Positions 39,770 to 63,983 of a stretch of DNA of 64,000 bases are shown piece by piece (the stretch's first letter is position 1; every line of letters starts with the position of its first letter). Source of the DNA: Telluria mixta (GTDB lineage: Bacteria > Pseudomonadota > Gammaproteobacteria > Burkholderiales > Burkholderiaceae_D); contig NZ_CP119520.1 of the NCBI RefSeq assembly GCF_029223865.1, positions 5,580,001 through 5,644,000 of the forward strand, given 5' to 3'. The position numbers were made by a program, and so were the translations under genes. The notes beneath the pieces were generated by a model. That model did no database searches. It was not told where the DNA came from and saw only the letters and a program-made list of their open reading frames with translations.

Positions 39770-39777
39770 TCCCTCCT

Positions 39778-39800
39778 GGCCGCGGCATCCTGCCGCGGCC
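39778..39800 (+). terminator. Hairpin after the LacI-family gene
   Basis: GGCCGCGGCA and TGCCGCGGCC are perfect 10-bp arms around TCC, starting 9 bp after the stop. No T-run follows, so it is a strong hairpin but an imperfect Rho-independent terminator. Confidence 0.5.
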
Positions 39801-39821
39801 CGCTACGCGCGACGCATAAAC

Positions 39822-39835
39822 TGTTCGCGCAAACA
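39822..39835. promoter_or_regulatory. Upstream xyl-box-like operator of the GH3-Weimberg operon
   Basis: TGTTCGCGCAAACA matches TGTTAGCGCTAACA at 12 of 14 positions. It lies 132 bp upstream (centre to centre) of the second operator at 39954-39967, a spacing compatible with DNA looping by a tetrameric LacI-family protein. Confidence 0.55.
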
Positions 39836-39919
39836 TCCTGAATTCCCTCTTTTCCTGCCATTTCTGCCACTGCCTGCAGCCGTTGCGTCGCCTCTGCCGG
39901 ACATCTTCCCAATAATTCA

Positions 39920-39967
39920 TTGACAAGCGCCAAATTAGACGTTTAGACTGGAATGGTTGCGGTAACA
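39920..39967 (+). promoter_or_regulatory. Promoter and operator of the GH3-Weimberg operon
   Basis: TTGACA (39920-39925), 18 bp, TAGACT (39944-39949), then the operator TGGTTGCGGTAACA (39954-39967), which differs from TGGTAGCGCTAACA at two positions. The operator covers the expected transcription start, the classical site for repression. The message would have a leader of about 115 bases before the GH3 ATG at 40073. Confidence 0.65.
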
Positions 39968-40072
39968 TTTTTGTTATTGGAATGTTGGGCAAAGACCTAC
40001 CGCATGCCAGGCAGACTACACGCCGCCGACCATACGGCGGCACTTACAAAAACAAGCAGGAGACATAAGTCG

Positions 40073-42463: not shown

Positions 42464-42479
42464 CCAAGAGAGACAAGAC

Positions 42480-43652: not shown

Positions 43653-43673
43653 ACTGAACATAACGAGAATTAC

Positions 43674-44462
43674 ATGTCTGAACAAAACCAAGCATTCGTC
43701 TACGCGACGTTCCCCGACCTCGCCGGCAAGCGCGTCGTCATCACCGGCGGCGGCAGCGGCATCGGCGCCGAGCTGACCACGGCCTTCGCCGGCCAGGGCG
43801 CCCGCGTCTACTTCCTCGACATCGCCGAGGAAGCCTCGCGTTCCCTGGAAGCGACGCTGGCCGGTTCGCGCATCGCGCCGAAGTTCATCAAGTGCGACCT
43901 GACCAACCTCGACGAGCTGAAGGCGACTTTCGCGCGCATCGAAGAGGAAGCGGGCGGCGTCGACATCCTGCTGAACAACGCGGCCAACGACGACCGCCAC
44001 GACATCGAGAACGTGACGCCGGCATACTGGGAAAGCCGCATGAACGTGAACCTGCGCCACCAGTACTTCTGCGCACAGGCCGTCATTCCGGGCATGAAAG
44101 CGCGCAAGTACGGCGTGCTGCTGAACTTCGGTTCGATTTCGTGGCACCTGCCGCACACCCAGCTGGGCCTGTACATGATGGCGAAGGCCGCCATCGAAGG
44201 CATGACCCGCAACATGGCGCGCGAATTCGGCCCGCACGGCATCCGTGCCGTGACGGTCGTCCCGGGCGCCGTCGTCACGCCGCGCCAGAAGGCGCTGTGG
44301 CACAACCCGGATGAGGAAGCCCGCATCCTGGCCGGCCAGTGCATCCCCGAGCGCGTGGAGATGGAAGACGTCGCCGCGCTGGCGCTGTTCCTGGCGTCGA
44401 ACAACGCGCGCCACATCAGCGGCCGCGAGTACTTCGTCGACGCGGGCTGGTACGGCGCATGA
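43674..44462 (+). CDS. xylB: D-xylose 1-dehydrogenase (SDR family)
   Basis: First Weimberg step: NAD-dependent oxidation of D-xylose to xylonolactone. The 262 residues follow Caulobacter XylB closely: GKRVVITGGGSGIGAELT (cofactor loop, about 18-34), FLDIAEEASRSLEA with an acidic residue favouring NAD, NNAANDDRHDIENVTPAYW (about 100), catalytic Ser in LNFGSISWHL (about 156), and the Tyr-Lys pair in GLYMMAKAAIEGMTR (about 166-170). The ending GREYFVDAGWYGA is typical. It overlaps xylC by 4 bp (ATGA). Confidence 0.92.
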   Translation: MSEQNQAFVYATFPDLAGKRVVITGGGSGIGAELTTAFAGQGARVYFLDIAEEASRSLEATLAGSRIAPKFIKCDLTNLDELKATFARIEEEAGGVDILLNNAANDDRHDIENVTPAYWESRMNVNLRHQYFCAQAVIPGMKARKYGVLLNFGSISWHLPHTQLGLYMMAKAAIEGMTRNMAREFGPHGIRAVTVVPGAVVTPRQKALWHNPDEEARILAGQCIPERVEMEDVAALALFLASNNARHISGREYFVDAGWYGA

Positions 44463-45343
44463 GTACCGCGATCGCCACGCAACCCACGCCGCTGTGGGAA
44501 GTCGGCGCGACGCTGGGCGAGGGCGTCCTGTGGGATGCCCCGAACGGCCAGGTCTGGTTCGTCGACATCAAAGGCAAGCGCCTGCACCGCTGCGCGGCGG
44601 ACGGCAGCGCCAGGCAGAGCTGGGACGCGCCCGGCCAGGTGAGCTTCGTCGTGCGCGCCACGGACGGCGGCCTCGTCGTTTCGCTGGAGGACGGCCTGTA
44701 CCGCTTCGTGGAAAGCACCGGCGAATTCGTGCCGTTCGTGAAGGTCGAGGCGGACGTCCCCGGCAACCGCTTCAACGACGGCCACGTGGATGCGCAGGGC
44801 CTGCTGTGGTTCGGCTCAATGGACGACGCGGAGGAGGCCCCGTCGGGTGTGCTGTACCGTTTCGACGGCAAGCACGTCGTGCGCATGGACGACGGCTACA
44901 TCATCACGAACGGCCCGGCCGTGAGCCCGGACGGACGCACGCTGTATCACACCGACACGCTCGATAAACGGGTGTATGCTTTCGACCTGGCGGAAGACGG
45001 CAGCCTGTCGAACAAGCGCCTGTTCGCAGAGATCACGGACGGCGGCTGGCCGGACGGCATGGCGGTCGACGCCGAGGGTCACGTGTGGATCGCGGTGTTC
45101 CGCGGCTGGCGTATCGAGCGCCGCAATCCGCAAGGCGACAAGGTGGGCGAAGTGCGCTTCCCCTGCTCGAACATCACCAAGCTGGCTTTTGCCGGCGCCG
45201 ACCTGCGCACCGTGTACGCGACGTCGGCGCGCAAGGGCCTGACGGCCGAGGAACTGGCCCAGCAGCCGCTCGCGGGCGCGCTGTTCACCTTCCGCGCCGA
45301 GACGGCCGGATTGCCGCACCACGTGCTGCGGCTGCAGGAGTAA
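44459..45343 (+). CDS. xylC: Xylonolactonase (SMP-30/gluconolactonase family)
   Basis: Second Weimberg step: hydrolysis of xylonolactone to xylonate. The 294 residues form a six-bladed propeller with metal-binding residues in ATLGEGVLWDAPN (Glu about 20), NRFNDGHVDAQGLLWFGSMD (about 103), YIITNGPAVSPDGRTLYHTDT (Asn about 149) and GWPDGMAVDAEGHVWIAVF (Asp about 199). The ATG at 44459 overlaps the xylB stop. It lies in the same operon 6 bp before xylD. The lactone specificity follows from context; the fold alone would also fit gluconolactone or arabinolactone. Confidence 0.9.
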   Translation: MSTAIATQPTPLWEVGATLGEGVLWDAPNGQVWFVDIKGKRLHRCAADGSARQSWDAPGQVSFVVRATDGGLVVSLEDGLYRFVESTGEFVPFVKVEADVPGNRFNDGHVDAQGLLWFGSMDDAEEAPSGVLYRFDGKHVVRMDDGYIITNGPAVSPDGRTLYHTDTLDKRVYAFDLAEDGSLSNKRLFAEITDGGWPDGMAVDAEGHVWIAVFRGWRIERRNPQGDKVGEVRFPCSNITKLAFAGADLRTVYATSARKGLTAEELAQQPLAGALFTFRAETAGLPHHVLRLQE

Positions 45344-45349
45344 TACGGA

Positions 45350-47134
45350 ATGACACAACAGAACAGCAAACCGAAGCGCTTCCGGTCGCAGGACTGGTTC
45401 GACAACGAAGAGCGCATCGACATGACCGCGCTCTACCTCGAGCGCTTCATGAACTATGGCATCACCCCTGAGGAACTCCGTTCGGGCAAGCCGATCATCG
45501 GCATCGCCCAGAGCGGCAGCGACATCTCGCCGTGCAACCGCATCCACCTGGACCTGGCCAAGCGCGTGCGCGACGGCATCCGCGATGCCGGCGGCATCCC
45601 GATGGAATTCCCGCTGCATCCGATCTTCGAGAACTGCCGCCGCCCGACCGCGGCGCTGGACCGCAACCTGGCCTACCTGGGCCTCGTCGAGATCCTGCAT
45701 GGCTATCCGATCGACGCCGTCGTGCTGACGACCGGCTGCGACAAGACGACGCCGGCCCAGCTGATGGCCGCCGCCACCGTCGACATCCCCGCGATCGTGC
45801 TGTCGGGCGGTCCGATGCTGGACGGCTGGTTCGAAGGTGAACTGGTCGGCTCCGGCGCCGCGATCTGGAAGGGCCGCCGTCGCCTCGCCGCGGGCGAGAT
45901 CGACGAAAAGAAATTCATCGACATCGCGACCGCATCGGCCCCGTCGGCCGGCCACTGCAACACGATGGGCACCGCATCGACGATGAACGCCATCGCGGAA
46001 GCGCTGGGCATGTCGCTGACCGGTTGCTCGGCCATTCCGGCGCCGTACCGCGAACGCGGCCAGATGGCGTATGAAACCGGCAAGCGCATCGTCGGCATGG
46101 CGTTCGAAGACCTGCGTCCGTCGCAGATCCTGTCGCGCGACGCCTTCATCGACGCCATCGTCGTCAACGCCGCGATCGGCGGTTCCAGCAACGCGCAGCC
46201 GCACATCGTGGCGATGGCGCGTCACGCCGGCGTCGAGATCACGCCCGAAGACTGGATGGAATACGGCTACGACGTCCCACTGCTGCTGAACATGCAGCCG
46301 GCCGGCAAATACCTCGGCGAGCGTTACCACCGCGCCGGCGGCACGCCCGCCATCATGTGGGAGCTGGAGCAGAAAGGCCTGCTGCGTTCGAAGCGCCAGA
46401 CCGTCACCGGCAAGACGATGGCCGAGAACCTCGTCGGCCGCGAGAGCCATGACCGCGAAATGATCACCCCGTTCGACCAGCCGCTGAAGCAGAAGGCCGG
46501 CTTCATGGTCCTGAAGGGCAACCTGTTCGACTTCGCGATCATGAAGACGAGCGTGATCTCGGACGCCTTCCGCCAGCGCTACCTGTCGACGCCGGGTTCG
46601 GAAAACGCGTTCGAGTGCAAGGTCGTCGTGTTCGACGGTTCGGACGATTACCACCACCGCATCAACGATCCGGCACTCGGCATCGACGAGAACACGATGC
46701 TCGTGATCCGCGGTTCCGGTCCGGTGGGCTGGCCGGGTTCGGCGGAAGTCGTCAACATGCAACCGCCCGATGCACTGATCAAGAAGGGCATCAACGCGCT
46801 ACCGACGCTGGGCGACGGCCGCCAGTCCGGCACGTCGGACAGCCCGTCGATCCTGAATGCGTCGCCGGAAAGCGCGGCGGGCGGCAACCTGGCGCTGCTG
46901 CGCACGGGCGACCGCGTGCGCGTGGACCTGAACACGGGCAGCTGCAACGTGCTGATCCCGGACGAGGAACTGGAAGCGCGCCGCAAGGATGCGCCGCCGC
47001 CGATCCCGCCGAACCAGACGCCGTGGCAGCAGATCTACCGCGCGACCGTCGGCCAGCTGCACACGGGTGCCGTGATGGAGATGGCGCTGCAGTATCGCGA
47101 CGTCGGCCACGACATGCCGCGTCATAACCACTGA
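45350..47134 (+). CDS. xylD: D-xylonate dehydratase (IlvD/Edd family)
   Basis: Third Weimberg step: xylonate to 2-keto-3-deoxyxylonate, using an iron-sulphur cluster. The 594 residues are very close to Caulobacter XylD throughout, starting PKRFRSQDWFDNEERIDMTA and ending DMPRHNH. Cluster cysteines are in SGSDISPCNRIHLDL (about 62), VVLTTGCDKTTPAQ (about 130) and SAGHCNTMGTASTMN (about 203). GWPGSAEVVNMQPPDALIKK and GRQSGTSDSPSILNASPESA are active-site regions near the C-terminus. It is the last gene of the operon, followed 20 bp later by a strong terminator. Confidence 0.95.
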   Translation: MTQQNSKPKRFRSQDWFDNEERIDMTALYLERFMNYGITPEELRSGKPIIGIAQSGSDISPCNRIHLDLAKRVRDGIRDAGGIPMEFPLHPIFENCRRPTAALDRNLAYLGLVEILHGYPIDAVVLTTGCDKTTPAQLMAAATVDIPAIVLSGGPMLDGWFEGELVGSGAAIWKGRRRLAAGEIDEKKFIDIATASAPSAGHCNTMGTASTMNAIAEALGMSLTGCSAIPAPYRERGQMAYETGKRIVGMAFEDLRPSQILSRDAFIDAIVVNAAIGGSSNAQPHIVAMARHAGVEITPEDWMEYGYDVPLLLNMQPAGKYLGERYHRAGGTPAIMWELEQKGLLRSKRQTVTGKTMAENLVGRESHDREMITPFDQPLKQKAGFMVLKGNLFDFAIMKTSVISDAFRQRYLSTPGSENAFECKVVVFDGSDDYHHRINDPALGIDENTMLVIRGSGPVGWPGSAEVVNMQPPDALIKKGINALPTLGDGRQSGTSDSPSILNASPESAAGGNLALLRTGDRVRVDLNTGSCNVLIPDEELEARRKDAPPPIPPNQTPWQQIYRATVGQLHTGAVMEMALQYRDVGHDMPRHNH

Positions 47135-49189: not shown

Positions 49190-50770
49190 TTACTTCGCGA
49201 CCTGCAGGGTCCCGTCCACCATGCGCGTGAGCCCCAGCGGATTCTCGTCGCGCAGCGCTTCCGGCAGCAGGTCCGCCGGCACGTCCTGGTAGCACACCGG
49301 ACGCAGGAAACGCTCGATGGCCGTCGCGCCCACCGACGTGGTGCGGCTGTCCGACGTGGCCGGGAACGGGCCGCCGTGCACCATCGAGTGGGACACTTCG
49401 ACGCCGGTCGGGAAACCGTTGAACAGGATGCGGCCGGCTTTGCGTTCCAGCGTCGGCATCAGCTGCGCGGCCAGTTCGCGGTCGGCGGCCGTCGCGTGGA
49501 TCGTGGCCGTCAGCTGGCCTTCCACGTGGCGCGTCACCTCCAGCAGCTCGGCTTCGTCCTTGCACACGACGATCAGCGAGCTCGGTCCGAAGATCTCTTC
49601 TTCCAGCGCGCTGTTCGACAGGAACGTGGCCGCATCCGTCTGGTACAGCGCGGCCTGCGCGGCGCAGCCGCAGCCGTCCGAGCTGCCCTGGGCGATGAGT
49701 TCCACGCCGGCGAGACCGGAGCGGCGCGCGATCGCGTCGACGTACGCCTGGTGGATGCCCGCGGTGAGCATCGTGCCCGCGCCCTTGGCGGCCAGCGCTT
49801 CCGTGACGGCCCTCCGGAACACGTCGAGCTCAGGGCCGGCGAGGGCGATCACGAGGCCCGGGTTGGTGCAGAACTGGCCCGTGCCCATCGTGAGCGAATC
49901 GACGAAGCCTTGCGCCAGCTTGGCGCCGCCCGCGGCCAGGGCGCCCGGCAGCAGGTAGAACGGATTGATGCTGCTCATTTCGGCGTAGACCGGGATCGGT
50001 TCCTTGCGGGCCTGCGCCGCATTGACGAGCGCGAGGCCGCCATTGCGGGAGCCCGTGAAGCCGACGGCCTTGATGACGGGGTGCTGGACGAGCGCGAGGC
50101 CGATCTCGAAGCCGGTGCCGATCAGCATGGAGAAGGTCCCTTCCGGCATGCCGCAGTCTTCGACGGCCTGGCGGATCGCCTTGCCGACCAGTTCCGACGT
50201 GCCCAGGTGCGCGTTATGGGCTTTCACGACGACGGGGCAGCCGGCCGCCAGCGCGGACGCGGTGTCGCCGCCGGCGACGGAGAACGCGAGCGGGAAGTTC
50301 GACGCACCGAACACGGCGACGGGGCCGAGGCCGATCTTGCGCATGCGCAGGTCGGATCGCGGCGGCGTGCGCTGGGGCAGGGCGGAGTCCAGCGTCGCTT
50401 CCATGAAGTGGCCGTCGCGGACGACCTTCGCGAACAGGCGCAGCTGGTTGCAGGTGCGCGCGCGCTCGCCTTCCAGGCGGGCCGTCGGCAGGCCGGATTC
50501 GGCGGAGGCACGCTCGATCAGGGCCGGGCCCAGGTCCATGATGCGGTCGGCGATGGTTTCCAGGAAGCGGGCGCGCTGCTCGAGCGGCTGGTTGCGGTAG
50601 GCGTCGAACGCCTGTTCCGCCAACAGGCAGGCGGCGGCAAGGTCGTCCATGCCGGCGGCGCCGAATTCGGGTTCCATCTCGGCGCGCGTCGACGGATTGT
50701 AGGCGCGCAGCGTGCCGGCGCTGCCGCGCACGGCCTGCTTGCCGATGATCATTTCGCCTTGGATGTTCAT
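49190..50770 (-). CDS. 2-oxoglutarate semialdehyde dehydrogenase (ALDH family)
   Basis: A 526-residue aldehyde dehydrogenase assigned to the final Weimberg step, 2-oxoglutarate semialdehyde to 2-oxoglutarate. The catalytic Cys is in TMGTGQFCTNPGLVIAL (about 309) and the Glu in IPVYAEMSSINPFYLLPGAL (about 264); both motifs are typical of KGSADH enzymes and not of betaine-type dehydrogenases. The cofactor region reads VAVFGASNFPLAFSVAGGDT. It lies on the strand opposite the xyl operon, converging on GH2 with a 6-bp gap, and downstream of TonB-dependent receptor 1, separated from it by a terminator. The ribosome site is AAGGAG. Confidence 0.88.
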   Translation of the reverse strand: MNIQGEMIIGKQAVRGSAGTLRAYNPSTRAEMEPEFGAAGMDDLAAACLLAEQAFDAYRNQPLEQRARFLETIADRIMDLGPALIERASAESGLPTARLEGERARTCNQLRLFAKVVRDGHFMEATLDSALPQRTPPRSDLRMRKIGLGPVAVFGASNFPLAFSVAGGDTASALAAGCPVVVKAHNAHLGTSELVGKAIRQAVEDCGMPEGTFSMLIGTGFEIGLALVQHPVIKAVGFTGSRNGGLALVNAAQARKEPIPVYAEMSSINPFYLLPGALAAGGAKLAQGFVDSLTMGTGQFCTNPGLVIALAGPELDVFRRAVTEALAAKGAGTMLTAGIHQAYVDAIARRSGLAGVELIAQGSSDGCGCAAQAALYQTDAATFLSNSALEEEIFGPSSLIVVCKDEAELLEVTRHVEGQLTATIHATAADRELAAQLMPTLERKAGRILFNGFPTGVEVSHSMVHGGPFPATSDSRTTSVGATAIERFLRPVCYQDVPADLLPEALRDENPLGLTRMVDGTLQVAK

Positions 50771-50878: not shown

Positions 50879-53800
50879 TCAGAACGAGTACTGGGCCAGC
50901 AGCGTGTAACGCGGACCGCTCATGAACACCTGGCGGGTGAAGTTGCCAGCGTGCTGCTCCATGATCTGACGCGTGTACGAGTTGGTCAGGTTCGTCGCTT
51001 CCAGGCCGACGCGGAACTTGTCCGTGAAGTCGTAGAAGATCGAACCGTCCAGCTGGCCGTACGGTGCCTGGTACAGCGGCAGGCCGAATGCCTGGTCGTT
51101 GTTCGTCGTCGGGATCAGGAACTTCGCCGGATCCGCCGCCGGGTTCGTGTTCAGGCCGTTGTTGCCGCGGCTGCCCCACTGGGTCACGCCCAGCAGGTAA
51201 CGCGAACGCCAGTTGTACGCGAGGCGCATCGACAGGCCGTGCTGTTCGTACATGACCGCGAAGTTGATCGTGTGACGCGACAGGCCCTGCAGCGGGGTCT
51301 TGCCGAATGCACGACCGTCGGTATCGCAGCCGTTGATGAACAGGTTGTAGTTCGAACCCGCATCGTTACCCGAGCACCATGCTTCGAACACCGGATTCTT
51401 CAGCGTGCGCTCGCTCGACACGTAGGTCCAGCTTGCCTGGGTACCGATACCCTTCAGCCAGTCGGGCACGAAGTCGTAGTACTGCTGGTGCGCGATCTCG
51501 AAGCCGCGGGCGAAGCCGTTGGCGCCGTTGACCGGACCCGTGACCACGAACGTCTGCGGCTTGCCGTTGACGTCGTTCCTCGTGTACGCGTAGTTCTGCG
51601 TCGTGATGATGTCCTTGATGTCCTTGTTGAACGCCGAGAACGTCAGCGAACCGGCCTTGGCGAAGTACCATTCCGCCGTCAGGTCGACGTTGGTCGACGT
51701 GGTCGGCTTCAGCATCGCGTTGCCGTCGCTGTTGCCGGACAGGCTGGTGCCGTTGAAGATGACCTGGGTCGTCTTGCCGGACGCGTCGCGGATCGTCGTC
51801 TGGTTCGGCGACGAGTTCAGCGTCGTCTGCACCTGCAGCTGGTTGAAGTCCGGACGCGACATGGACTTGGCCACGGCGAAGCGGAACTGCAGCTGGTCGC
51901 TGTACTTCAGGCGCAGGTTCAGGCTCGGCAGCCAGTTGTGGTACGAGTTGCTGGCCGACTGGGCTGCCGCGAACGGCGCGATGTTGACCAGCGTGTCCGC
52001 GCCGGTGACGGGGGCATCGGTCGGGATGTTGACGGTCGGCGGGCTGTACGAGACGTAGCCGCTGCCCGAGCCGTTCGTCTTCACGTAACGGATGCCGATG
52101 TTACCGTCGATCGGGTACTTCAGGTCGTCGAAGCCGAAGCGCAGCTGCGTGTACGCGGCGCGGGTCTTCTCGCTCTGCGTGTTGGTCGCTGCCGGATCGT
52201 TGAAGGTCGCTGCCTTCCACGGATCGCAGGTCGAACCCTGCTCCTTGCACAGCACGTCGTGGTAGGCGTGGATCTTCGCCCATTCGTTCGGGAAGCCGCG
52301 CACCACGGATTCGTCGGCGAACAGCATCGGCGGCAGGTTGTATTTGCCGTCGAAGAAGTTGTCGATCTTCTGCAGCGAGGCGCCGCCGGCGAAGCGCGGG
52401 TCACCCAGGCGGGCAACGTGCGGGATCTGCCAGCCTTCCATCCACGGGAACGTGATGGCCTGCCAGTTGTAGAACTTCTGGGCCTTGTGGTTCTCGCCGT
52501 CGCGGTTGGCCATGCGGAAGCCGAAGCGGACGTCGCGCAGCACCGGGTGGTCGAACGCGTACTTGAAGTCGGTCTTCCATGCCTTCTGGGTCGCCGTGGC
52601 GTGGTCCAGCGCTTCCTGGGTGTAGGCCCAGTAGTAGTTGTTCGGGTCGGCCATGTAGGCTGCCGAGCCGAGGGTAATCTGCGGGACGTCGCCGCGCATG
52701 TCCATCTGCTGGTTCGGCATGATGAAGCCGGTCGACACGTCGGCGTCGAAGCCTTCGGTCGTCGAGCGCACGTGCTGGAAGTCGTTGGTCCAGGTCAGGC
52801 TCGGCGTGACGCGCCATTGCAGGTTCAGCGAGGTGTCGCGGGTGCTGGATTCACGCGAGTTGATGCGCTGCGAGCTGTTGAACGGCGAACCGCCGTACGT
52901 CGGGTTCGAGATCGTACCGCTCTGGAACACGCCGTTGCTGTTGAAGACCGAGTCCTGGCTCGCGACCTGCTGGTACCACTTGTCCTCGGACGAACCGACG
53001 ACGTGCTCGTCGAGGTCTTCCTTGTACTTCGTCTTGAAGTAGGTGAGGGCGGCCGTGAAGTCGCGGTTCGGACGCCACTGGAAGGCGGCGTAGTCGCCGC
53101 GGCGGGTACGCTCGAAGTCCTGCGAACGGTAGCCGACGCCCAGCGGGATCCACTGGGTCTTCGAGCGGTCGTACAGGGCCGGATTCGTGGAGTTCACGTG
53201 CGGGTAGTACACGTCGACGCCGACGCCGTCGGAACGGGTCGGGCTCTTCGCATGCGCGAAGTCGACCAGGGCGCCGAATTCGCCGAACGTGTCCGACTTC
53301 CAGCGGTTCGACAGCAGGACCGTGCCGGTGGGGGACGGCGCGCCCTTGCGCAGGGTCGAATAGGTTTCCGACACGCCGAGAGTGCCCTTGAAGCCCTTGT
53401 AGTCGAACGGCATGGCCGTGCGCAGGTTCACGAGGCCGGCGACGGCGCCTTCGATCTGTTCCGCGGACGGGTTCTTGTAGACGTCGACGCCGGCCATCAG
53501 CTCCGGTGCAACGTCGGCGAAGCCGAGCGAGCGGCCGCCGCCGGCCGAGAATGCGTCGCGGCCGTTGACTTCCGAACGCACGTAGGTCAGGCCGCGGACG
53601 GACACGCCCGAGCCTTCGACGGACTGGCGGTTCGGGTCGCCCGCCATGTTGCGGTCGATGGTGACGCCGGCGATACGCTGCAGCACCTCGGTGACCGAAC
53701 GGTCCGGCAGCTTGCCGATGTCTTCGGCGACGATCGAATCGACGACTTCGTCGGCATCCTGCTTGAGTTTTTGCGCCGACTGCAGTGCGGCGCGCTGGCC

Positions 53801-53932
53801 GCTGACCACGACGACGGCGGCGCCGCTGGCGGGGTCGGTCGTGCCGGTGGTTTGTGCCCATGCTGCGGCGCTGGAAAGGACGGCTACGTGCGCAACCGCT
53901 GCCGCAATCGCGGTCTTTTGGAAATTCCTCAT
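50879..53932 (-). CDS. TonB-dependent receptor 1 (carbohydrate type)
   Basis: A 1,017-residue outer-membrane importer. The signal peptide ([21 protein letters not shown] to AWAQ) is followed by a TonB-box-like [15 protein letters not shown]. The plug domain has [20 protein letters not shown] and [19 protein letters not shown] (about 75-125). A long 22-strand barrel ends in TLLAQYSF with the terminal Phe needed for assembly. This large plug-plus-barrel type without a SusD partner is the kind used for plant oligosaccharides in Xanthomonas and Caulobacter. It is divergent from the uncharacterised gene at 54514, so xyloglucan or xylan oligosaccharides are the likely cargo. The ribosome site is GGGGGAG. 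Confidence 0.93.
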
Positions 53933-54336
53933 TGTCTCCCCCGATGATCAGGTAGTGTTGTTATAACAAGCTCTAACAAATCCAGTGTGAATGTGAGACT
54001 TAACACTGGTTGTTATACGCTACCATAAATTTTTTATTTCTTGCTACTCCGTTGTCAGTTTTGTGACAACGCAACGTTTCTTTTTTCCGACAGTGGAGGC
54101 AAAGAGACCGTTGCCAGGACCTCGCCCCCGTATGCTGGCCAGCCGGGAGAGCGCTGGGCCGGAAGCGCGCGAGGCCCCGTCTTACCTGTGAACACTGCCG
54201 TTTTCGAGAGTGCGCTCGCGTTCGCGTGCGTCATCTGAGCCCGGCTGCAAGCTCACCAGACGATGTTATACGCAATCGATTTCATGACTGCCAAAAAAAT
54301 CTTCTTGTGCGTGTGAGAAATACAACAAGTGTGTCA

Positions 54337-54425: not shown

Positions 54426-54475
54426 TGTTAGCGCGAACATTCGCCTTGCGCACCCCACATCGGTTCGCTTAGCAT
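54426..54475 (+). promoter_or_regulatory. xyl-box-like operator and promoter before the uncharacterised gene
   Basis: TGTTAGCGCGAACA (54426-54439) matches TGTTAGCGCTAACA at 13 of 14 positions, the best site in the window. Just downstream, TTGCGC (54446-54451), 18 bp, TAGCAT (54470-54475) could be the promoter of the 54514-GH74-GH95 operon. The operator would then lie directly upstream of the -35 box. A half-site AGCGCTACCA adjoins on the left. Confidence 0.55.
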
Positions 54476-54513: not shown

Positions 54514-56385
54514 ATGCGCACCTCGCTCGCCCGCCAGACCGCTGCCGCGCTGGCCTTTCTCGCTTTCGCCGGCAATGCCATGCTGGCGCCCGTCCCGGCG
54601 CAGGCCGCCGGCCACTACAAGCACTTCAAGACCGCGATCTATATTCCGGTGAACGTCACGCAGAGCCTCGTCGACCCGCAGGTCTTCGAGCACCAATTCG
54701 CGCGTGCCATGAGCCAGGTCCCGTTCGACAAGGTCTATATCGAAGGCTACCGCGACAACCACTTTGCCAGCGACGCCGAGATCGAGGCCGTGAAGCGCCA
54801 GTTCCAGGCGAAGGGCATCGAGGTGGCGGGCGGCGTCACGCTCGCGGCGGGCGGTTTCGACGGCCAGTTCATGACCTTCGACTACGAGTCGCCGAAAGAC
54901 CGCGACACGTGCAAGCGCGCGATGGCACTGATGGCGCGCCATTTCGACCACGTGATCCTCGACGACTTCACGTTCTACACGTCGAAGTCGGACGCCGACA
55001 TCAAGGCGAAGGGCGCACGCACGTGGACGGACTACCGCCTCGCCACGATGCGCAAGGTGTCGAAAGACCTGATCATCGACCCGGCGCGCGCCGTCAACAA
55101 AAACGTCAAGATCGTCATCAAGTACCCGAACTGGTACGAGCATTTCGAAGGCCTGGGCTTCGACCTCGCGCAGCAGCCCGACATGTTCGACGGGATCTAT
55201 GCGGGCACCGAGACGCGCGACCCGGTCATCACCGACCAGTTGCTGCAGCAGTACGAGTCGTACAACATCATCCGCTATTACGAGACGCTCCGTAAGGACG
55301 GCAAGAACGGCGGCGGCTGGGTCGACACCTATTCGATCCGCTACATCGACCGTTACGCGGAACAGCTGTGGGACACGATGCTTGCGAAGGCGCCCGAGAT
55401 CACGCTGTTCAACTGGCACCCGGCCGCGCAGGACACGCCGGCCGAAGCGGGCGAGCGTCCGTGGGCGGGGACGCCCACGACGTTCGACTGGGACCGCATC
55501 GTGGCCGACTGGAAGGCGGCGAACCCGGACGCGACAGCGCCGCCGGGCTGGGGTCTGGCCGCGGGCGCCGCGTTGAAGCAGATCGACGCCGTACTCGACC
55601 AGCTGGGCAATCCGACCGGCATCCCGACCTACCGTCCGGCCAACTCGTCGTCGGCCGAGGACTTCCTGCCCAACTACCTGGGCAACGTCGGCATCCCGAT
55701 CGCACTGACGGCGCGCTTCCCGCGGGACGCGCAGACGATCCTGCTGACGCAGGCATCGGCCGCGGACCCCGATGTGCTGAACAAGGTGAAGCGCCAGCTG
55801 GAGGCGGGGAAGGTCGTGTTCGTGACGTCCGGCTTCGTCAAGGCGACGCAGGATCCGAAGCGCAAGGACCGCGGCTTCCAGGACCTGCTCGAGGTCTATG
55901 CGACCGGCAACCAGGTGCTGCTGAACGACTACTACAACGGCTATGGCGCGGGCAACGGCGAATCGCTGCGCGACGATCCGAAGGTGGCACCGCGCGACGT
56001 GCTGTTCCCCGAGCTGCACTACTTCACGAACGACGCGTGGCCCATCATCCGCGGCGTCGCGGGCGCACGCGGCTTCCCGGTGCTGCTGATGAACCGCTAT
56101 TCGAAGGGCGTGCTCTACGTCCTGTCCATTCCCAGCAATATCGGCGACCTGTATAGTATGCCGCCGGGCGTGATGAACAGCGTGAAGAAATACCTGATGG
56201 CCGACACGCCCGTACGCATCGAGGCGCCGGCCGGCGTGAGCCTGTTCACTTACGATAACGGCGCCTACGTCATCCAGTCGTTCCGCGACACCGCGACGAC
56301 AGTGAAGGTCGTGAAGCACGGGCCGACCGATGCGGTGAGCGAGGTGGTGATCCCGCCGCACAGCTTCCGTGTCTACAAGGGCTAA
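54514..56385 (+). CDS. Uncharacterised secreted protein, candidate glycoside hydrolase
   Basis: A 623-residue secreted protein (signal MRTSLARQTAAALAFLAFAG to AQAA; ribosome site CCGGAGAC). I cannot assign a named family. The N-terminal half looks like a beta/alpha barrel: FDKVYIEGYRDNHFASDAEI, EVAGGVTLAAGGFDG, FDHVILDDFTFYTSK with paired Asp (about 155), VNKNVKIVIKYPNWYEHFEG (about 198) and DGIYAGTETRDPVITD (Glu about 232), then GGGWVDTYSIRYIDRYAEQLW. Acidic residues at strand ends resemble retaining glycosidases. The C-terminal half (about 340-560) resembles an amidotransferase-like domain such as the trimerisation domain of beta-galactosidases, ending in a small beta domain. It leads an operon with GH74 and GH95 and carries xyl-box-like operators. 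Confidence 0.85.
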   Translation: MRTSLARQTAAALAFLAFAGNAMLAPVPAQAAGHYKHFKTAIYIPVNVTQSLVDPQVFEHQFARAMSQVPFDKVYIEGYRDNHFASDAEIEAVKRQFQAKGIEVAGGVTLAAGGFDGQFMTFDYESPKDRDTCKRAMALMARHFDHVILDDFTFYTSKSDADIKAKGARTWTDYRLATMRKVSKDLIIDPARAVNKNVKIVIKYPNWYEHFEGLGFDLAQQPDMFDGIYAGTETRDPVITDQLLQQYESYNIIRYYETLRKDGKNGGGWVDTYSIRYIDRYAEQLWDTMLAKAPEITLFNWHPAAQDTPAEAGERPWAGTPTTFDWDRIVADWKAANPDATAPPGWGLAAGAALKQIDAVLDQLGNPTGIPTYRPANSSSAEDFLPNYLGNVGIPIALTARFPRDAQTILLTQASAADPDVLNKVKRQLEAGKVVFVTSGFVKATQDPKRKDRGFQDLLEVYATGNQVLLNDYYNGYGAGNGESLRDDPKVAPRDVLFPELHYFTNDAWPIIRGVAGARGFPVLLMNRYSKGVLYVLSIPSNIGDLYSMPPGVMNSVKKYLMADTPVRIEAPAGVSLFTYDNGAYVIQSFRDTATTVKVVKHGPTDAVSEVVIPPHSFRVYKG

Positions 56386-56415: not shown

Positions 56416-58569
56416 ATGATGAAGTCGATGAAGCTGGCCCCCGCGGTCGCATTGGCGGTCGCGCTGTTGGCCGGCCGCGTGGAGGCGCAGCAGGTGCCGT
56501 ACGTATGGGACAGCGTCGCGATCGGCGGCGGCGGCTTCGTCACGGCCGTCGTGCCCAGCCGCGCCGCGCCCGGCGTCGCCTATGCGCGCACGGACGTGGG
56601 CGGCGCGTACCGCTGGGATCCGCGCGCACGCCGCTGGCATCCACTGCTCGACTGGGTGGCGGAAGACCAGACGGGTTACCTCGGCATCGATTCGCTCGCG
56701 GTCGACCCGCGCGATGCCGACAACATCTGGCTGCTCGCCGGTATCGCCTACCTGAACGGCGGCCGCACCGCGATCCTGCATTCGACGGACGCGGGCAAGA
56801 CCTTTTCCGTCGTCGACGTCACGAACCAGTTCAAGACCCACGGCAACGGCATGGGCCGCCAGGATGGCGAGCGCCTCGCCGTCGATCCGGGCAACAGCAA
56901 GCTGCTGTACGTCGGCACGCGCCGCGACGGCCTGTTCAAGAGCGCCGACGCGGGCCGCACGTGGACCCGCGTGACGGCGCTGCCGGTAATGGCCACGCCG
57001 AACGACGTCGGCATCGATGTCGTCGTGCCGGACCCCGCCAGCGTGAAGGATGGGCAGGCGCGCCGCGTGTTCGTGGGCGTGTCGCGTTTCGGCGCCGTCG
57101 GTGCGAACCTGTACCGCAGCGACGACGGCGGCGCGACGTTCGAACCCGTGGCCGGTGCGCCGCTCGACCTGATGCCGCAGCGCGCCATCCTCGACGGGGC
57201 AGGGAACCTCATCGTCACGTTCGCGAACGGCGCCGGCCCGCATCCGGATCGCACGGGCCGCGAGCCGATGGACCGCGGCCAGATCTGGAGATACGCGATC
57301 GCGAGCGGCGTGTGGACGAACATCACGCCCGCCGGCTGGACGCGCCCGTTCGCCGGCATCAGCGTCGATCCGAAAAATCCGCAGCGCCTCGTCGCGTCGA
57401 CCATCAATACGTTCCTGCCGCAGGGCGACGCGAAGGGCGACCGCATCTTCCTGTCGAATGACGGCGGCGCCTCGTGGACCGACGTGATCGGCCGGGGGTT
57501 CGTGCGCGACGCGGCCGGGGTGCCCTGGCTGAAAGGTCACTCGATCCATTGGGCCGGTTCCGTCGAATTCGACCCGGCCGACACGCATGCCGTCTGGGTC
57601 ACGTCCGGCAACGGCGTGTTCCGCACGGCGAACATCGATGCGTCGCCCGCCACGTGGACGTTCACCGTCGACGGGCTGGAAGAGACGGTCCCGCTGGGCT
57701 TCGCCAGTATTCCCGGCGGTCCGCTCGTTTCCGCCATCGGGGACATCGACGGCTACCTGCACGACGATCCGTCGCGCCACGGTCGCATCCACGATCCGCA
57801 GATCGGCACGACGACGGGCCTCGCCTACGCTCCAAAGGATCCGCGCACGATGGTACGCGTGGGCGACAGCATGCTCGTCACGCACGACGGCGGCGCCACG
57901 TGGAAGAAGACGGCGGCCATCAACGGCAAGCGCGGACAGGTCGCGATATCGGCCGACGGCGCCGTGATCCTGCACGCACCCGAGAAGGCGCAAGAGGCCT
58001 GGCGCTCGGGCGATGGCGGCACGACGTGGACTGCCGTGGCGGGTCTCGCGAAGGCCAACCTGCGCCCGGTGGGCGACCCGGTCGACGCGAAGGTGTTCTA
58101 CGCGTACGACGATACGGCGCTTCTCGTCAGCACCGACGGCGGCGCCTCGTTCGCGCCACGCGCGAGCCTGCCCGCGGGCGGGTCGCGCCTCGTGCGGGTT
58201 GCGCCGGGGCGGGGCGGGGACGTGTGGGTCGCGCTGAAGAACGGCGGTCTCGTACGCTCCGTCGACGGCGGCACCCACTTCGCGGCGCTGGACGCCGTGC
58301 GCTATTGCGGCGCAGTCGGCTTCGGCAAGGCGGCGCCCGGACACGACTACCCGGCGGTCTACATCTGGGGCGACGTGAAGGGCGTGCGCGGCATCCATCG
58401 CTCCATCGACGGCGGCGCCACCTGGACCCGCATCAACGACGACGCCCACCAGTACGGCGGACCGGGCGACGGCCAGTTCATCGTGGGCGACATGAACCGC
58501 TACGGCGTCGTCTACATGAGCACGGCCGGTCGCGGCATCGTGTACGGCAAACCTGCCGCCGCCAACTGA
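56416..58569 (+). CDS. GH74 xyloglucanase-like enzyme
   Basis: A 717-residue secreted enzyme (signal [20 protein letters not shown] to VEAQ) built of two seven-bladed propellers, with many Asp-box repeats ([65 protein letters not shown]). The two catalytic Asp are expected in [16 protein letters not shown] (about 58) and [14 protein letters not shown] (about 440), both matching GH74. It should cut the xyloglucan backbone. It follows the uncharacterised gene by 30 bp (ribosome site TGGAGAC) and precedes GH95 by 25 bp. No binding module or sorting domain is attached. Confidence 0.9.
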
Positions 58570-58594: not shown

Positions 58595-60889
58595 ATGGCC
58601 CTTCTTTGTAATCGATTTCATCCGTTGATGTTCGCGCTGGCCCTGGCCGGCGCCGTCTCCACTGCGGTAGCGGCACAGGACCTCGTGCTGCGCTACGACC
58701 GCCCGGCCCAGGACAATGACCAGGGCTGGGAAAAGGAAGCGCTCCCGATCGGCAACGGCCGCATCGGCGCGATGGTGTTCGGCGGCCTCGCGCGCGAACA
58801 CCTGCAGTTCAACGACATCACCTTGTGGTCGGGCGACGCGAAGGAGACGGGTACCTATCAGCCGTTCGGCGACGTCGTCGTCGACCTGCCGGGGCACGAC
58901 TGGGATGCGCGGGACTACCGCCGCACGCTGGACCTGGCGCATGCCGTCCACGCCGTCACGTACACGCACGGCGGCGTGCATTATCGCCGCGAGGCGTGGG
59001 CCAGCCACCCGGCGCAGGTACTCGTGCTGCGCCTGACGGCCGACAAGCCGGGCCAGTACTCGGGGTCGATCGCGCTGTCCGACCGCCACGGCGCGCATCT
59101 CGCGTCCAGCAAGGATACCCTGTACGCGACGGGCACGCTGGCCGGCTGGACGCTGCCGAACGAAGCGCCGACGGCCAATACGCTGGACTACGCGAGCCAG
59201 GCGAGGATCGTGAACGAGGGCGGCAAGGTGGCCGTCGAGAACGGCCGCATCGTGTTCACGGGCTGCGATGCGCTGACCGTGATCGTGGGCGCCGGCACGA
59301 GCTATGTAGCCGACGCGGCGAAGCACTTCCGGGGCGAGCATCCGCTGGCGCGCGTGACGGCACAGGTGGCGAAAGCAGCCGCACGTCCCGCCGACCAGCT
59401 GCGCGCAGAGCATGAGCGCGACGTGGCAAGCCTGCTGGGCCGCGTCCAGCTCGACCTGGGCGCGACCGCGCCGGACCGCAAGGCGCTGCCGACGGACGCG
59501 CGTGTACTGGCATACACGAAGGACGGCAACGACCCGGAACTGGAAGCGCAGTACTTCCAGTATGGCCGCTACCTGCTGGCGTCCAGCTCGCGCGGGTCGC
59601 TCCCGGCCAACCTGCAGGGCCTGTGGAACAACAGTCTCACGCCGCCGTGGCGCTCGGACTACCACACGAACATCAACGTCCAGATGAATTACTGGCCGGC
59701 CGAGGTGACGAACCTGTCCGAGATGGCCAAGCCGTTCTTCGGCTTCGTGACGAGCGTGGCGCCCGTGTGGCGCCAGGCGACGGCGGCGGAGTTCAAGACT
59801 AAAGAGGGCAGACCGGTGCGCGGCTGGACGCTGCGCACGGAATCGAATCCCTTCGGCGGCATGAGCTACACGTGGAACAAGACGGGCAACGCCTGGTATG
59901 CCCAGCACTTCTGGGAACACTACGCGTTCACGCAGGATAAAACGTTCCTGCGCGACGTCGCGTACCCGATGATGAAGGAGGCGAGCGCGTTCTGGCAGGA
60001 CTATCTGAAGGAACTGCCGGACGGCCGGCTCGTCGCGCCGCAGGGCTGGTCGCCCGAGCACGGCCCCATCGAGGACGGCGTCACGTACGACCAGGAGATC
60101 GTCTGGGACCTGTTCAACAACACGGTGGAAGCGGCGGACGTCCTCGGCGTCGACAAGCCCCTGCGCGACAAACTCGCCCGCATGCGCGATCGCCTGGCGG
60201 CGCCGAAGGTCGGCAGCTGGGGCCAGCTGCTCGAGTGGCTCGACGAGAAGAAGGATCCGGTGCTGGATACGCCGGGCGACACGCATCGCCATGTCTCGCA
60301 CCTGTTCGCGCTGTTCCCGGGGCGCCAGATCAGCCCCGCGCGCACGCCGGCGCTGTCCGCCGCCGCGAAGCGCACGCTGGAAGCCCGCGGCGACGCGGGC
60401 ACCGGGTGGTCGATGGCGTGGAAGATGGCGTTCTGGGCCCGCCTCTACGACGGCGACCACGCCTACAAAATGTTGCGCGGGGTGCTGGCGAGCCCGGGCG
60501 CGCGCGCGGCCCAGCAGGCCAGCGCCGGCTCGGAACAACTGAATGGCGGCGGCACGTATCCGAACCTGCTGGACGCGCATCCGCCGTTCCAGATCGACGG
60601 CAATTTCGGCGCGACGGCCGGCATCGCGGAGATGCTGCTGCAGTCGCAGGCGGGCGCGATCCAGCTGCTGCCCGCGCTGCCGTCCGCGTGGCCGGACGGC
60701 GAAGTGAAAGGCCTGCGTGCGCGCGGCGGATTCGAGGTGGACCTGCGCTGGACGCGCGGCCGCCTCGTCGATGCCGTCGTGCGCAGGGTAGCAGGCAGCG
60801 GTGCCGCGAACGTGCGCTATGGCGAGCGCACCGTCGCGGTGAAGCTGCGTCCGGGCGAGAGCGTGCGCCTGGATGCGGCACGGTTTTGA
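58595..60889 (+). CDS. GH95 alpha-L-fucosidase/alpha-L-galactosidase
   Basis: A 764-residue secreted enzyme with the GH95 domain order: beta-sandwich ([19 protein letters not shown], about 48), helical barrel and C-terminal beta domain. Catalytic residues known from Bifidobacterium AfcA are all in place: the two Asn of [17 protein letters not shown] (about 358), the Glu of [13 protein letters not shown] (about 487) and the Asp of [17 protein letters not shown] (about 669). It would remove alpha-1,2-fucose (or L-galactose) from xyloglucan side chains. The start at 58595 has no clear ribosome site; ATG 58628 is an alternative that still leaves a signal. It is the third gene of the operon. Confidence 0.92.
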
Positions 60890-60980: not shown

Positions 60981-63900
60981 ATGTATCAATTGAAGAAAAC
61001 AGCCATCGCCGTGGCCGTAACGCATGTCGCGTTGCTGGCCGGCGGCATGGCGGTCGCGCAGGAGGCCCAGCCGGCCGGCGGCAGCAATGTCGTCGTCGTC
61101 ACGGGCCAGCGCGCCGCGCTGAATTCGGCGCAGGCGCTCAAGCGCGATTCCGACGAGATCGTCGATTCGATCGTCGCGGACGATATCGGCAAGCTGCCGG
61201 ACCGTTCGATCACGGAAGTGCTGCAGCGCGTGGTCGGCGTCACCATCGACCGCACGATGTCGAAGGGCGACCCGGAACACTATTCGGTGGAAGGCTCGGG
61301 CGTCACCATCCGCGGCCTGTCGTACACGCGTTCGGAATTGAACGGCCGCGATTCGTTCTCGGCCAACGGCGGCCGCTCGCTCAACTTCGAAGACGTCCCG
61401 CCCGAGCTGATGGCCGGCGTCGATATCTATAAAAACCCGTCGGCGGAACAGATCGAAGGCGCCATCGGCGGCCTCGTGAACCTGCGCACGGCGATGCCGT
61501 TCGACTTCAAGGGCCGCAAGCTGGCCGCGTCGCTGCAGAACACGTACTCGGAACTGAAGAAGGGCAAGCGCCAGCCGTCCGGTTCGTTCATGTTCTCGGA
61601 CCGCTGGAAGACGGGCTTCGGCGAGATCGGCGCCCTGGTCGACTACGCGTACTCGGAAAGCGGCACCCGCACCGACGCGTTCCAGGTCGAGCCGTATTAC
61701 CAGCGCAGCGACGTCGTCGCCGGCCAGAACGTGTGGGTGCCGAAAGGCTCGCAGTACCGCACGCTGAACTTCGACCGCAAGCGCCAGGGCCTCTACGGCG
61801 CGCTGCAGTGGAAGAAGGATGCGACCCTGCAGTCCTCGCTCACGTACTTCAAGTCGAAGTACCGCATGCAGTGGGACGAGCAGGCGATCTTCTCGTCCGC
61901 CAGCCCGTACAACATCGGCGTCACCAACGGCACGTACGGCACCAACGGCCAGCTGCTGACCGGCACCCTGACCGACGCCACCGACAAGGGCATCGACTTC
62001 GGCGCCGACACCCGCGCCGCCAACCGCAAGTCGCAGACAACGGATATCTCCTGGCACCTGACCTGGCGTCCGACCAGCGCGTGGCAGTTCGACACCGACC
62101 TGCAGCGCGTGCGCGCGACGAGCAACAGCTTCGACTCGACCGTCGCCACGGCCGTCAAGATGCCGTATGAGAACGTGGACCTGTCCGGCTCCGTGCCGAA
62201 GCTGACGTTCGACCAGTACCAGACCAGCTACCTGGCCAATCCGGCGAACTACTACTGGGCGTTCACGCAGGAGCACTTCGACGACAGCCATGCCGGCGAA
62301 TGGGCGTGGAAGACGGATGCGAAATACACGTTCGACCATCCGGTCCTGCGCGACGTCCGTTTCGGCATGCGTTTGACGAAGGCCGATTCGACGACGACGA
62401 ACTCGAACCCGAGCTACAACTGGGCGGCCATCACCCAGCCGTGGCAGTCGGACACGGGCGGCCAGCTCGCGTACCTGGGCGATCCGCGCTTCTCGAACCA
62501 GACGCAGGTCCACCAGTTCACGAACTTCTTCAACAATAACACCGCGGTCCCGGCCCTCGTGTTCCCGAACGTGGCGCTGGCCACGGGCTACCCGGGCAGC
62601 TATGCGACGCTGCACAGCTACCACGACATCCTGTGCCAGCAGGCGAACCAGGCGAACGGCACGAGCAACCCGTGCACGCCGTGGTCGCCCGCGACGTTCG
62701 GCACCGACCCGGCAGGCACGAACGACCTGTCCGAGCGCACCGGCGCGTTCTACACGCAGCTGCGCTTCGGCTTCGACGACCTGAAGTACCCGATCGACGG
62801 CAACATCGGCGTGCGCTACGTGCAGACGCTGCTGAAGGCGCACGGCTACACGGTGTTCAACCCGAACGTCACGCAGCCGGCCCAGGGCACGACGGTCATC
62901 GGTCCGGAAATCCCGAACATCGCCGCGTTCTCGACGCGCCAGGACTTCGACAATCACTACCACAACGTGTTGCCGAGCCTGAACCTGCGCATGAAGGCGA
63001 CCGACAAGCTGCAGTTCCGCTTCGCGGCCGCAATGGGCATCTCGAAACCGGATTATTCGCAGCTGCAAAGCTACACGACCCTGTCGGAAAACGTCGACCA
63101 GACCACGACGGGCAACGTCGTCACCGTCAACAACGTCGGCCTGACGGGTACCGGCACCGGCAATCCGAAGCTCAAGCCGGTGCAGTCGCGCCAGGTCGAC
63201 CTGTCGGCGGAATGGTATTTCGCGCCGGCCGGTTCGCTGACGGTGGCCGTCTTCAACAAGCAGCTGAAGGACATCATCATCAACCAGTCCTACGGCTACA
63301 ACGTGGCCGGCGTGACCGGTACGCCGTACACGTTCACGGTCACGGGTCCGGTCAACGGCGCGCGCGGTCGTGCGCGCGGCGCGGAGATCGCGTACCAGCA
63401 GTACTTCGACAAGCTGCCGGGCTGGATGTCGGGATTTGGCGTCCAGGCCAACTACACGTACGTGGACAGCAAGGAAGACCTGTACCATCCGGTCAACTCG
63501 GCGTTCTGCTCGGGCAGCTCGAACGGCGCGGATAACCTGAACCTGAACCAGAACGGCTGCGACACCAACGGCGCGACGTTCGGCAACCTGCCGCTGCAGA
63601 ACCTGTCGAAGAACGCCTACAACCTGGCCCTGCTGTACGACAAGGGCAAGGTCTCGGCACGCCTGGCATGGGCCTGGCGTTCGAAGGCACTGCAGAACGT
63701 GAACGTCAACGGCACCAACGGCACGGACGGCCGCCGCGTCGATCCGGCGACCGGCGCCACGCAGACGGTCGCGTGGGCATTGCCGACGTGGTCGGACAGC
63801 TATGGCCAACTGGACGGTTCATTCTTCTACAATATCAATGAGCAGCTGTCGCTCGGCGTGGAAGCGCAGAACCTGACCAACTCGAAGTACCGACAGCTGA

Positions 63901-63983
63901 TGCAGCAGTCGATCGGCATGATGACCCGCGCGGTCTTCGTGTCCGGCCGCCGCTACACGGCGTCACTGCGCTACTCGTTCTAA
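60981..63983 (+). CDS. TonB-dependent receptor 2 (carbohydrate type)
   Basis: A 1,000-residue outer-membrane importer (signal MYQLKKTAIAVAVTHVALLAGG to AVAQ; ribosome site AAAGGAGA). The TonB-box-like VVVVTGQRAALNSAQ, plug motifs LPDRSITEVLQRVVGVTIDR and GSGVTIRGLSYTRSELNGR and the C-terminal TASLRYSF are present. It is clearly a paralogue of receptor 1: plug and many barrel segments align ([36 protein letters not shown]). It lies 91 bp after GH95 on the same strand with only weak hairpins between, so it is probably part of that operon. It likely imports xyloglucan-derived oligosaccharides. The window ends 17 bp after its stop. Confidence 0.93.
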   Translation: MYQLKKTAIAVAVTHVALLAGGMAVAQEAQPAGGSNVVVVTGQRAALNSAQALKRDSDEIVDSIVADDIGKLPDRSITEVLQRVVGVTIDRTMSKGDPEHYSVEGSGVTIRGLSYTRSELNGRDSFSANGGRSLNFEDVPPELMAGVDIYKNPSAEQIEGAIGGLVNLRTAMPFDFKGRKLAASLQNTYSELKKGKRQPSGSFMFSDRWKTGFGEIGALVDYAYSESGTRTDAFQVEPYYQRSDVVAGQNVWVPKGSQYRTLNFDRKRQGLYGALQWKKDATLQSSLTYFKSKYRMQWDEQAIFSSASPYNIGVTNGTYGTNGQLLTGTLTDATDKGIDFGADTRAANRKSQTTDISWHLTWRPTSAWQFDTDLQRVRATSNSFDSTVATAVKMPYENVDLSGSVPKLTFDQYQTSYLANPANYYWAFTQEHFDDSHAGEWAWKTDAKYTFDHPVLRDVRFGMRLTKADSTTTNSNPSYNWAAITQPWQSDTGGQLAYLGDPRFSNQTQVHQFTNFFNNNTAVPALVFPNVALATGYPGSYATLHSYHDILCQQANQANGTSNPCTPWSPATFGTDPAGTNDLSERTGAFYTQLRFGFDDLKYPIDGNIGVRYVQTLLKAHGYTVFNPNVTQPAQGTTVIGPEIPNIAAFSTRQDFDNHYHNVLPSLNLRMKATDKLQFRFAAAMGISKPDYSQLQSYTTLSENVDQTTTGNVVTVNNVGLTGTGTGNPKLKPVQSRQVDLSAEWYFAPAGSLTVAVFNKQLKDIIINQSYGYNVAGVTGTPYTFTVTGPVNGARGRARGAEIAYQQYFDKLPGWMSGFGVQANYTYVDSKEDLYHPVNSAFCSGSSNGADNLNLNQNGCDTNGATFGNLPLQNLSKNAYNLALLYDKGKVSARLAWAWRSKALQNVNVNGTNGTDGRRVDPATGATQTVAWALPTWSDSYGQLDGSFFYNINEQLSLGVEAQNLTNSKYRQLMQQSIGMMTRAVFVSGRRYTASLRYSF

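Follow-up and report, generated by a model that had tools for sequence, protein, structure and literature searches.

What is the role of the secreted protein encoded at the head of a xyloglucan gene group in Telluria mixta? The protein, termed T here, is the putative product of a 623-amino acid open reading frame lying towards the end of the stretch of DNA that was analysed (the window, 64,000 nucleotides). A preliminary description of the locus had proposed a glycosidase of a new family, acting on a side chain of xyloglucan or xylan. T is the sole match for its own sequence in a search of the whole 7.44-Mb genome. Its N-terminus reads by eye as a Sec-type signal peptide, cut between AQA and A, in keeping with the signal peptide assigned earlier. 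The features of the locus are itemized in Table 1.

Table 1. Features of the T locus (nucleotide positions are those of the window, residue numbers those of T)
Feature	Position	Strand	Remark
Aldehyde dehydrogenase	49190..50770	-	
Divergent TonB-dependent receptor	50879..53932	-	
Xyl-box-like operator TGTTAGCGCGAACA	54426..54439	+	begins 88 bp before T start codon
T, 623-aa ORF, ATG start	54514..56385	+	putative secreted glycosidase
T barrel domain	residues ~35-345		approximate borders, from models
T amidotransferase-like middle domain	residues ~350-560		approximate borders, from full model
T C-terminal beta-sandwich	residues ~565-623		approximate borders, from full model
D150-D151 codons	54961..54966	+	after strand 4 (VILDDFTFY), invariant
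K203 codon	55120..55122	+	end of strand 5, invariant
E233-T234-R235 codons	55210..55218	+	just after strand 6 (GTETRD); E233 and R235 invariant
D271 codon	55324..55326	+	end of strand 7, invariant
GH74 endo-xyloglucanase	56416..58569	+	PDB match, Pfam
GH95 alpha-L-fucosidase	58595..60889	+	Pfam, further match
TonB-dependent receptor	60981..63983	+	same direction as T
GH35 then GH31	just past window end		seen in locus L163, downstream of TonB-dependent receptor

T, GH74, GH95, the TonB-dependent receptor, GH35 and GH31 are predicted to form a single operon. The gaps between T and GH74 and between GH74 and GH95 are 30 and 25 bp respectively, and no terminator-like site was found between 53900 and 61000. 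The GH74 protein matches solved xyloglucanases over nearly its full length (best 6p2l, E = 2.9e-184), and the best PDB matches in the related loci include Bgl35A-type beta-galactosidases (GH35, locus L097) and xyloglucan alpha-xylosidases (GH31, locus L098). The aldehyde dehydrogenase gene adjoins the xyloglucan genes in 14 mapped Massilia loci. The same set of glycosidases, together with TonB-dependent receptors, is found in the XyGUL of Xanthomonas (TBDTs, GH74, GH31, GH35, GH95 and CE20; excerpted text of PMC8245568). The gene list in that excerpt has no T-like protein, whereas the Massilia operon begins with one. A Sphingomonas esterase query gave no match in the 14 Massilia loci L086-L099. 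Elsewhere in the window, positions 38657-47131 carry a LacI-type regulator, a GH3, an FAA-hydrolase-like protein, a D-xylose 1-dehydrogenase (NF053674, above cut-off) and a dihydroxy-acid/sugar-acid dehydratase, which with the aldehyde dehydrogenase look like an oxidative xylose pathway near the xyloglucan genes. A GH115 and a GDSL esterase are followed immediately by a peptidase S51-type protein (29703-30980), an odd member of a xylan group.

The barrel-only model of T has a mean pLDDT of 91.4, in agreement with the barrel-like N-terminal half of the preliminary description. In the full-length model (mean pLDDT 82.4) the C-terminal half comprises an amidotransferase-like domain followed by a beta-sandwich; the former had been likened to the corresponding domain of trimeric beta-galactosidases, and the model bears this out. 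A Foldseek comparison of the predicted structure, proposed as a check on the earlier reading, returned GH42/GH164-like matches over three domains, with the barrel present. T has the full-length domain order of the GH42 beta-galactosidases (Thermus A4 beta-galactosidase, 1kwg, and that of B. circulans, 3tts), namely barrel, amidotransferase-like trimerisation domain and beta-sandwich. The GH164 beta-mannosidase Bs164 has the same three-domain fold, but with 10-11% identity to T in the listed fold alignments and no PDB sequence match at E values up to 10. The alpha-L-fucosidase isoenzyme 2 (6tvk, a member of GH151) is also among the comparisons, again with no sequence match. The matched chains of Cwp19 and PgaB/BpsB align with the barrel only. 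GH112-type phosphorylases, also found by Foldseek, were set aside because they are cytosolic while T has a signal peptide.

The likeness to GH42 is less apparent in the sequence. The GH42 model PF02449 does not match T at E<=1, nor any of 30 family members at E<=10. A profile of the T family aligns collinearly with 14 Verrucomicrobiota GH42 proteins over 480 columns, with a score of 41.2 (E = 8e-4) compared with scores of at most 26.9 for 11 control families from the neighbourhood; by its probability of 24% this weak match is not significant. GHL6 (PF14871) profiles gave scores of 42.4 over 40 columns and 40.4 over 80, and 30.9 in another comparison, but one of the 14 rows in these alignments (L135) is in the wrong frame and nothing has been built on the scores. 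The PF14871 model itself matched neither T nor the 30 members.

The active site of GH42 enzymes is based upon two glutamates, acting as acid/base and nucleophile. The column of the acid/base glutamate is occupied by F152 in T, and by Phe in 216, Trp in 21 and Leu in one of 238 T-family sequences. The asparagine preceding this glutamate in GH42 aligns with D151. The nucleophile (LMESTPS) falls on Y273, in a column that is mostly Tyr, Phe, Leu or Ile in the family; the alignment here is weak, and D271 is placed two residues before this column in the same weak strand-7 register. The possibility that D151 and D271 lie exactly upon the two GH42 glutamates is ruled out by counting columns. In GH42 a cysteine cluster that follows strand 4 binds zinc. 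Such a cluster is also present in other branches of the T family (113 of the 114 newer rows and 136 of all 238), with the first cysteine six residues after the position of D151; in GH42 it lies six residues after the asparagine. The equal spacing therefore backs the register of T and GH42 at strand 4. T itself lacks the GH42-type cluster and has D123 and the segment TSKSD there instead. We conclude that T keeps a GH42-like scaffold without either of the GH42 catalytic glutamates.

The residues that are retained lie at the ends of the barrel strands. The 238 sequences, some of which are only about 25% identical to T, comprise 114 listed proteins (those of at least 470 residues among 120) together with the T of the window, 81 proteins from the loci, five distant members and 37 picked sequences. 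Ten residues, D150, D151, K203, P205, G215, G231, E233, R235, W269 and D271, are unchanged in all of them. R175 is kept in 218 and D236 in 168, while E209 is kept in 168 and replaced by Asp in 61. Of the three acidic strand-end motifs pointed out earlier, two keep their carboxylates D150-D151 and E233 throughout the family, but the third (WYEHFEG) does not keep E209. Since both GH42 glutamates are gone, the chemistry of T would have to use other invariant residues at the barrel end. If T is an enzyme, catalysis would rest on D150 or D151, E233 and D271, assisted by K203 and R235, and the acid/base pair would be expected to comprise one of the strand-4 aspartates plus either E233 or D271. With hydrophobic residues in the GH42 catalytic columns, this assignment is a guess.

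The preliminary description could match T to no known family. This holds insofar as T has no match in the local Pfam set at E<=1, reaches no cut-off in NCBIfam (two chance matches, E ~0.1) and matches no PDB chain sequence at E<=10; nor did a profile of 30 relatives match any PDB chain at E values up to 10. A collection of plasmids contained no match to T. It does not hold for the protein database, where 6504 of 7996 scored candidates are relatives at E<=0.001 and the best 120 all carry the newer accessions PF28584, PF28585 and PF27250. PF28584 is absent from the Pfam set used for the search with T. Among the best 120, one is named 'permease' (by one source) and the others are shown as 'hypothetical' or 'uncharacterized'. 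Searches begun from distant members add two branches. One, of Opitutaceae type, has PF28584 and in most cases PF27250; the other has PF28584, sometimes accompanied by the remaining two accessions, and its named hosts belong to Planctomycetota, Oscillospiraceae, Armatimonadota and Verrucomicrobia. PF28584 thus extends into the further branches while the other two accessions vary, and it is therefore most likely the barrel. The family is functionally uncharacterised, though present in databases.

T-like genes are rare overall in the sampled genomes. In a set of 61 genomes, made up of the window genome and relatives, T occurs in five, each of them from the genus of the window. There are T-like genes in two of 397 Pseudomonadota genomes, one being the window genome, and in nine of 288 Verrucomicrobiota genomes including the chosen centre, four of the nine having distant members only. 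Across GTDB species genomes 533 T-like stretches were confirmed, and the best 80 were retained as loci. In some loci there are two copies. In L079 (4952-6838 and 9920-11842) each follows a GH74-like gene; L073 and L068 (Verrucomicrobia/Pseudomonadota loci) also have two, the first copy in L073 being split between two frames. A barrel-only distant relative on the reverse strand of L118 (1-2424) adjoins a GH78-like alpha-L-rhamnosidase, as read by eye.

Within Massilia the T gene is an optional cassette between a conserved operator and GH74. An orthologous GH74 (70-100% identity) is present in 15 genomes of the genus of the window among the 61. In five of these T lies directly ahead of GH74 on the same strand, and in the other ten T is absent. 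Replacement of T by another gene was considered and rejected, as no gene of at least 100 amino acids was called between GH74 and the divergent neighbour in the ten T-less loci. The operator box precedes GH74 in all ten (identical in seven, changed in three); in one it falls 47 bp inside the called start of GH74, which has probably been set too far upstream. No such box lies ahead of GH74 in the window. As the box stands before T or, in T-less loci, before GH74, T appears to be a member of the xyloglucan regulon and yet dispensable.

The operator was sought using the pattern TGGTAGCGCTAACA, which we take to be the xyl-box consensus. With up to three mismatches there are 12 matches in the window (near-palindromes being counted on both strands) compared with 2.76 expected and a maximum of eight in 100 shuffles. 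The site before T had been described as the best xyl-box-like site of the window. Using TGGTAGCGCTAACA it has two mismatches and ties with three other sites (24924, 39954 and 54337), but it is the only site with a single mismatch to the palindrome TGTTAGCGCTAACA, as deduced from overlapping-window counts over bases 1-63500. Its sequence is identical in seven of seven aligned Massilia upstream regions, the window included. The same is true of TGTTATACGCAATCGATTTCAT (window 54264-54285), between the divergent TonB-dependent receptor and T, possibly another regulatory site.

The association of T with xyloglucan genes extends beyond Massilia, into several bacterial classes and across phyla. Genes in the loci were scored by tblastn; the gene caller had missed, for example, GH95 in L007 and L008 and T in L015. 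At least two of GH74, GH95, GH31 and GH35 are present in 21 of the best 80 T loci; the other 59, many of them on short contigs, do not show two of these genes. Over the 80 loci the individual counts are 23 for GH31, 17 for GH74, 15 for GH35, nine for GH95 and six for GH67. In a quick tree of T (no bootstrap, L015 left out) the 21 loci are spread over separate groups, in Massilia, in Sphingomonas, at two other positions among the Alphaproteobacteria, in gammaproteobacterial MAGs and in Verrucomicrobia. Fifty non-Massilia T-bearing genomes were drawn from the 72 loci L014-L085, mostly by dropping close relatives by eye. GH74 (E<=1e-60) is present in 32 of them, in 46 copies, and gave no match in the remaining 18. 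In the background samples GH74 is found in six of 299 Pseudomonadota and 15 of 288 Verrucomicrobiota genomes, each sample including its T-bearing centre. Against the T-less background Fisher's test gives p = 4e-29, uncorrected for relatedness and lifestyle; seven T-bearing genomes (G000, G269, G449, G466, G555, G599 and G727) were removed from this background, and four Verrucomicrobiota with distant members (G540, G651, G685 and G709) were counted as T-less. In Verrucomicrobiota alone, with the centre omitted, GH74 is found in two of four T-bearing genomes compared with 12 of 283 others (p = 0.013). GH74 lies within ~10 kb of T in ten of the 50 genomes (L014, L019, L030, L062, L065, L067, L069, L073, L079 and L085), where 0.24 would be expected by chance.

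Other loci have a different setting. In Caulobacter, Nitrospirillum and FCPU426 the scanned neighbours are mostly housekeeping or unrelated genes (ATP synthase, TauE, a sensor kinase, a TPR protein and exonuclease VII), and an alpha-amylase lies near T in the Rhizomicrobium-like L043. The ancestral substrate of T may have been something other than xyloglucan. In L036 a SASA-type esterase (PF03629, 7741-9645), possibly CE20-like, stands directly before T, and its relatives are one gene from T in L047 and L048. Proteins of ~500 amino acids resembling flavin halogenases occur beside the TonB-dependent receptor in L062 (2349-5365; one was scanned, with weak NCBIfam matches) and in the xyloglucan loci L036, L047, L048, L015 and L061.

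Taken together, T is probably a secreted exo-acting glycoside hydrolase with a GH42-like fold and a rebuilt active site, directed in Massilia to xyloglucan side chains; judged on sequences and models, we give this a probability of about 0.58. This agrees with the preliminary description in all that can be computed: T is a putative glycosidase, secreted and GH42-like, its family has no assigned function, and its gene belongs to a xyloglucan operon. The other enzymes of the operon already cover the backbone, xylose, galactose and fucose. In the periplasm or on the cell surface T would trim a side chain beyond the reach of GH74, GH95, GH35 and GH31.

A substrate can be suggested tentatively. GH42 relatives act on beta-D-galacto and alpha-L-arabino sugars, and the galacturonic acid (GalA) attached to xylose in acidic xyloglucan is the beta anomer. 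The GH42-like scaffold would fit a beta-D-galacto geometry. GalA is present in the xyloglucan of Arabidopsis root hairs and is listed, with L-arabinopyranose, as a cap at O-2 of xylose (excerpted text of PMC4844278, among whose references are titles on the xyloglucan of mosses and liverworts). In part of the family T lies in hexuronate or glucuronoxylan loci. L070 and its close relatives have an MFS transporter (scoring below the cut-off of its model), a D-mannonate dehydratase and T in that order, with glucuronate isomerase and GH67 alongside, and a Verrucomicrobiota genome has MFS, GH8, GH67, GH43, T, where the GH67 was identified by BLAST to the L070 GH67 cluster. The GH8-GH67-GH43-T group is followed, after a few genes, by a GH106 alpha-L-rhamnosidase (L128, 13617-16487). 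In Massilia glucuronate isomerase (UxaC) is present in four of five T-bearing and three of ten T-less genomes (Fisher p = 0.10). G021, with T and no UxaC match, is a counterexample, and the genomes having both T and UxaC may share ancestry. The variation at R175 (kept in 218 of 238 sequences) also counts against a uronic acid. The invariant K203 and R235, the gene order with hexuronate genes and GH67 and the UxaC counts hint weakly at a uronic acid. Because of the sugar preference of GH42, the two invariant basic residues and these loci, our guess is that T removes beta-D-galacturonic acid from xylose in root-hair or moss xyloglucan, although this specific assignment is rather unlikely to be correct. 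In the partial texts returned by a search of largely open-access literature, the matches listed describe no bacterial enzyme for the GalA-xyloglucan step.

A different exo-acting specificity has to be weighed against this. T could be an alpha-L-arabinopyranosidase, or another neutral exo-beta-glycosidase of a rarer side chain, removing alpha-L-Arap from xyloglucan xylose or a sugar that caps the MeGlcA of xylan. Alpha-L-Arap has the beta-D-galacto geometry accepted by GH42, one of the fold matches of T, 5xb7, is a GH42 alpha-L-arabinopyranosidase, and a neutral exo-glycosidase would also suit the GH67 contexts. L-Arabinopyranose is itself one of the O-2 caps listed in the excerpt of PMC4844278. 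We regard this as unlikely, since it leaves the invariant K203 and R235 and the mannonate dehydratase and UxaC neighbours unexplained. The GH42-like fold could also be that of a beta-glucosidase or beta-galactosidase that repeats one of the usual steps of xyloglucan breakdown, on backbone glucose or the galactose of the L chain, and there is no GH3 beta-glucosidase within the Massilia operon (the GH3 of the window is at 39953). Yet GH35 is present in all 14 of the Massilia loci L086-L099 and in the operon of the window, ten of the 15 GH74-bearing genomes manage without T, and Sphingomonas L036, L047 and L048 carry T and GH3 side by side, so that such duplication is distinctly unlikely.

It is very improbable that T is a GH151-like alpha-L-fucosidase working in parallel with GH95. 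GH95 is present in five of five T-bearing and nine of ten T-less Massilia loci; T therefore does not replace it there, and the notion that T stands in for the fucosidase is not supported. T might alternatively be a pseudo-enzyme or a glycan-binding protein on a GH42-like scaffold, as the hydrophobic residues in both GH42 glutamate columns would allow. Four other carboxylates together with K203 and R235 are nevertheless retained in 238 of 238 sequences, including those near 25% identity. This is unlike a decayed active site, and a non-catalytic role is improbable. An exo-acting hydrolase with a rebuilt site thus remains the preferred reading of T.

What is new here is the loss of both GH42 glutamates along with family-wide invariance of other residues, the link to GH74 across phyla and the cassette under one operator. 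The thousands of proteins of this family, so far without a function, now have a fold, a short list of residues for mutation and a few candidate substrates. In its fullest form, which is quite unlikely, T would found a new GH family with a site drawn from D150-D151, E233 and D271 and a basic pocket, removing GalA from acidic xyloglucan as a cassette in root-associated Massilia. If T is active, it would represent a new glycosidase family in which the catalytic site has moved within a known scaffold. If acidic xyloglucan is its substrate, T would be the missing enzyme for the xyloglucan of root hairs and bryophytes, and might be a trait of root-associated bacteria.
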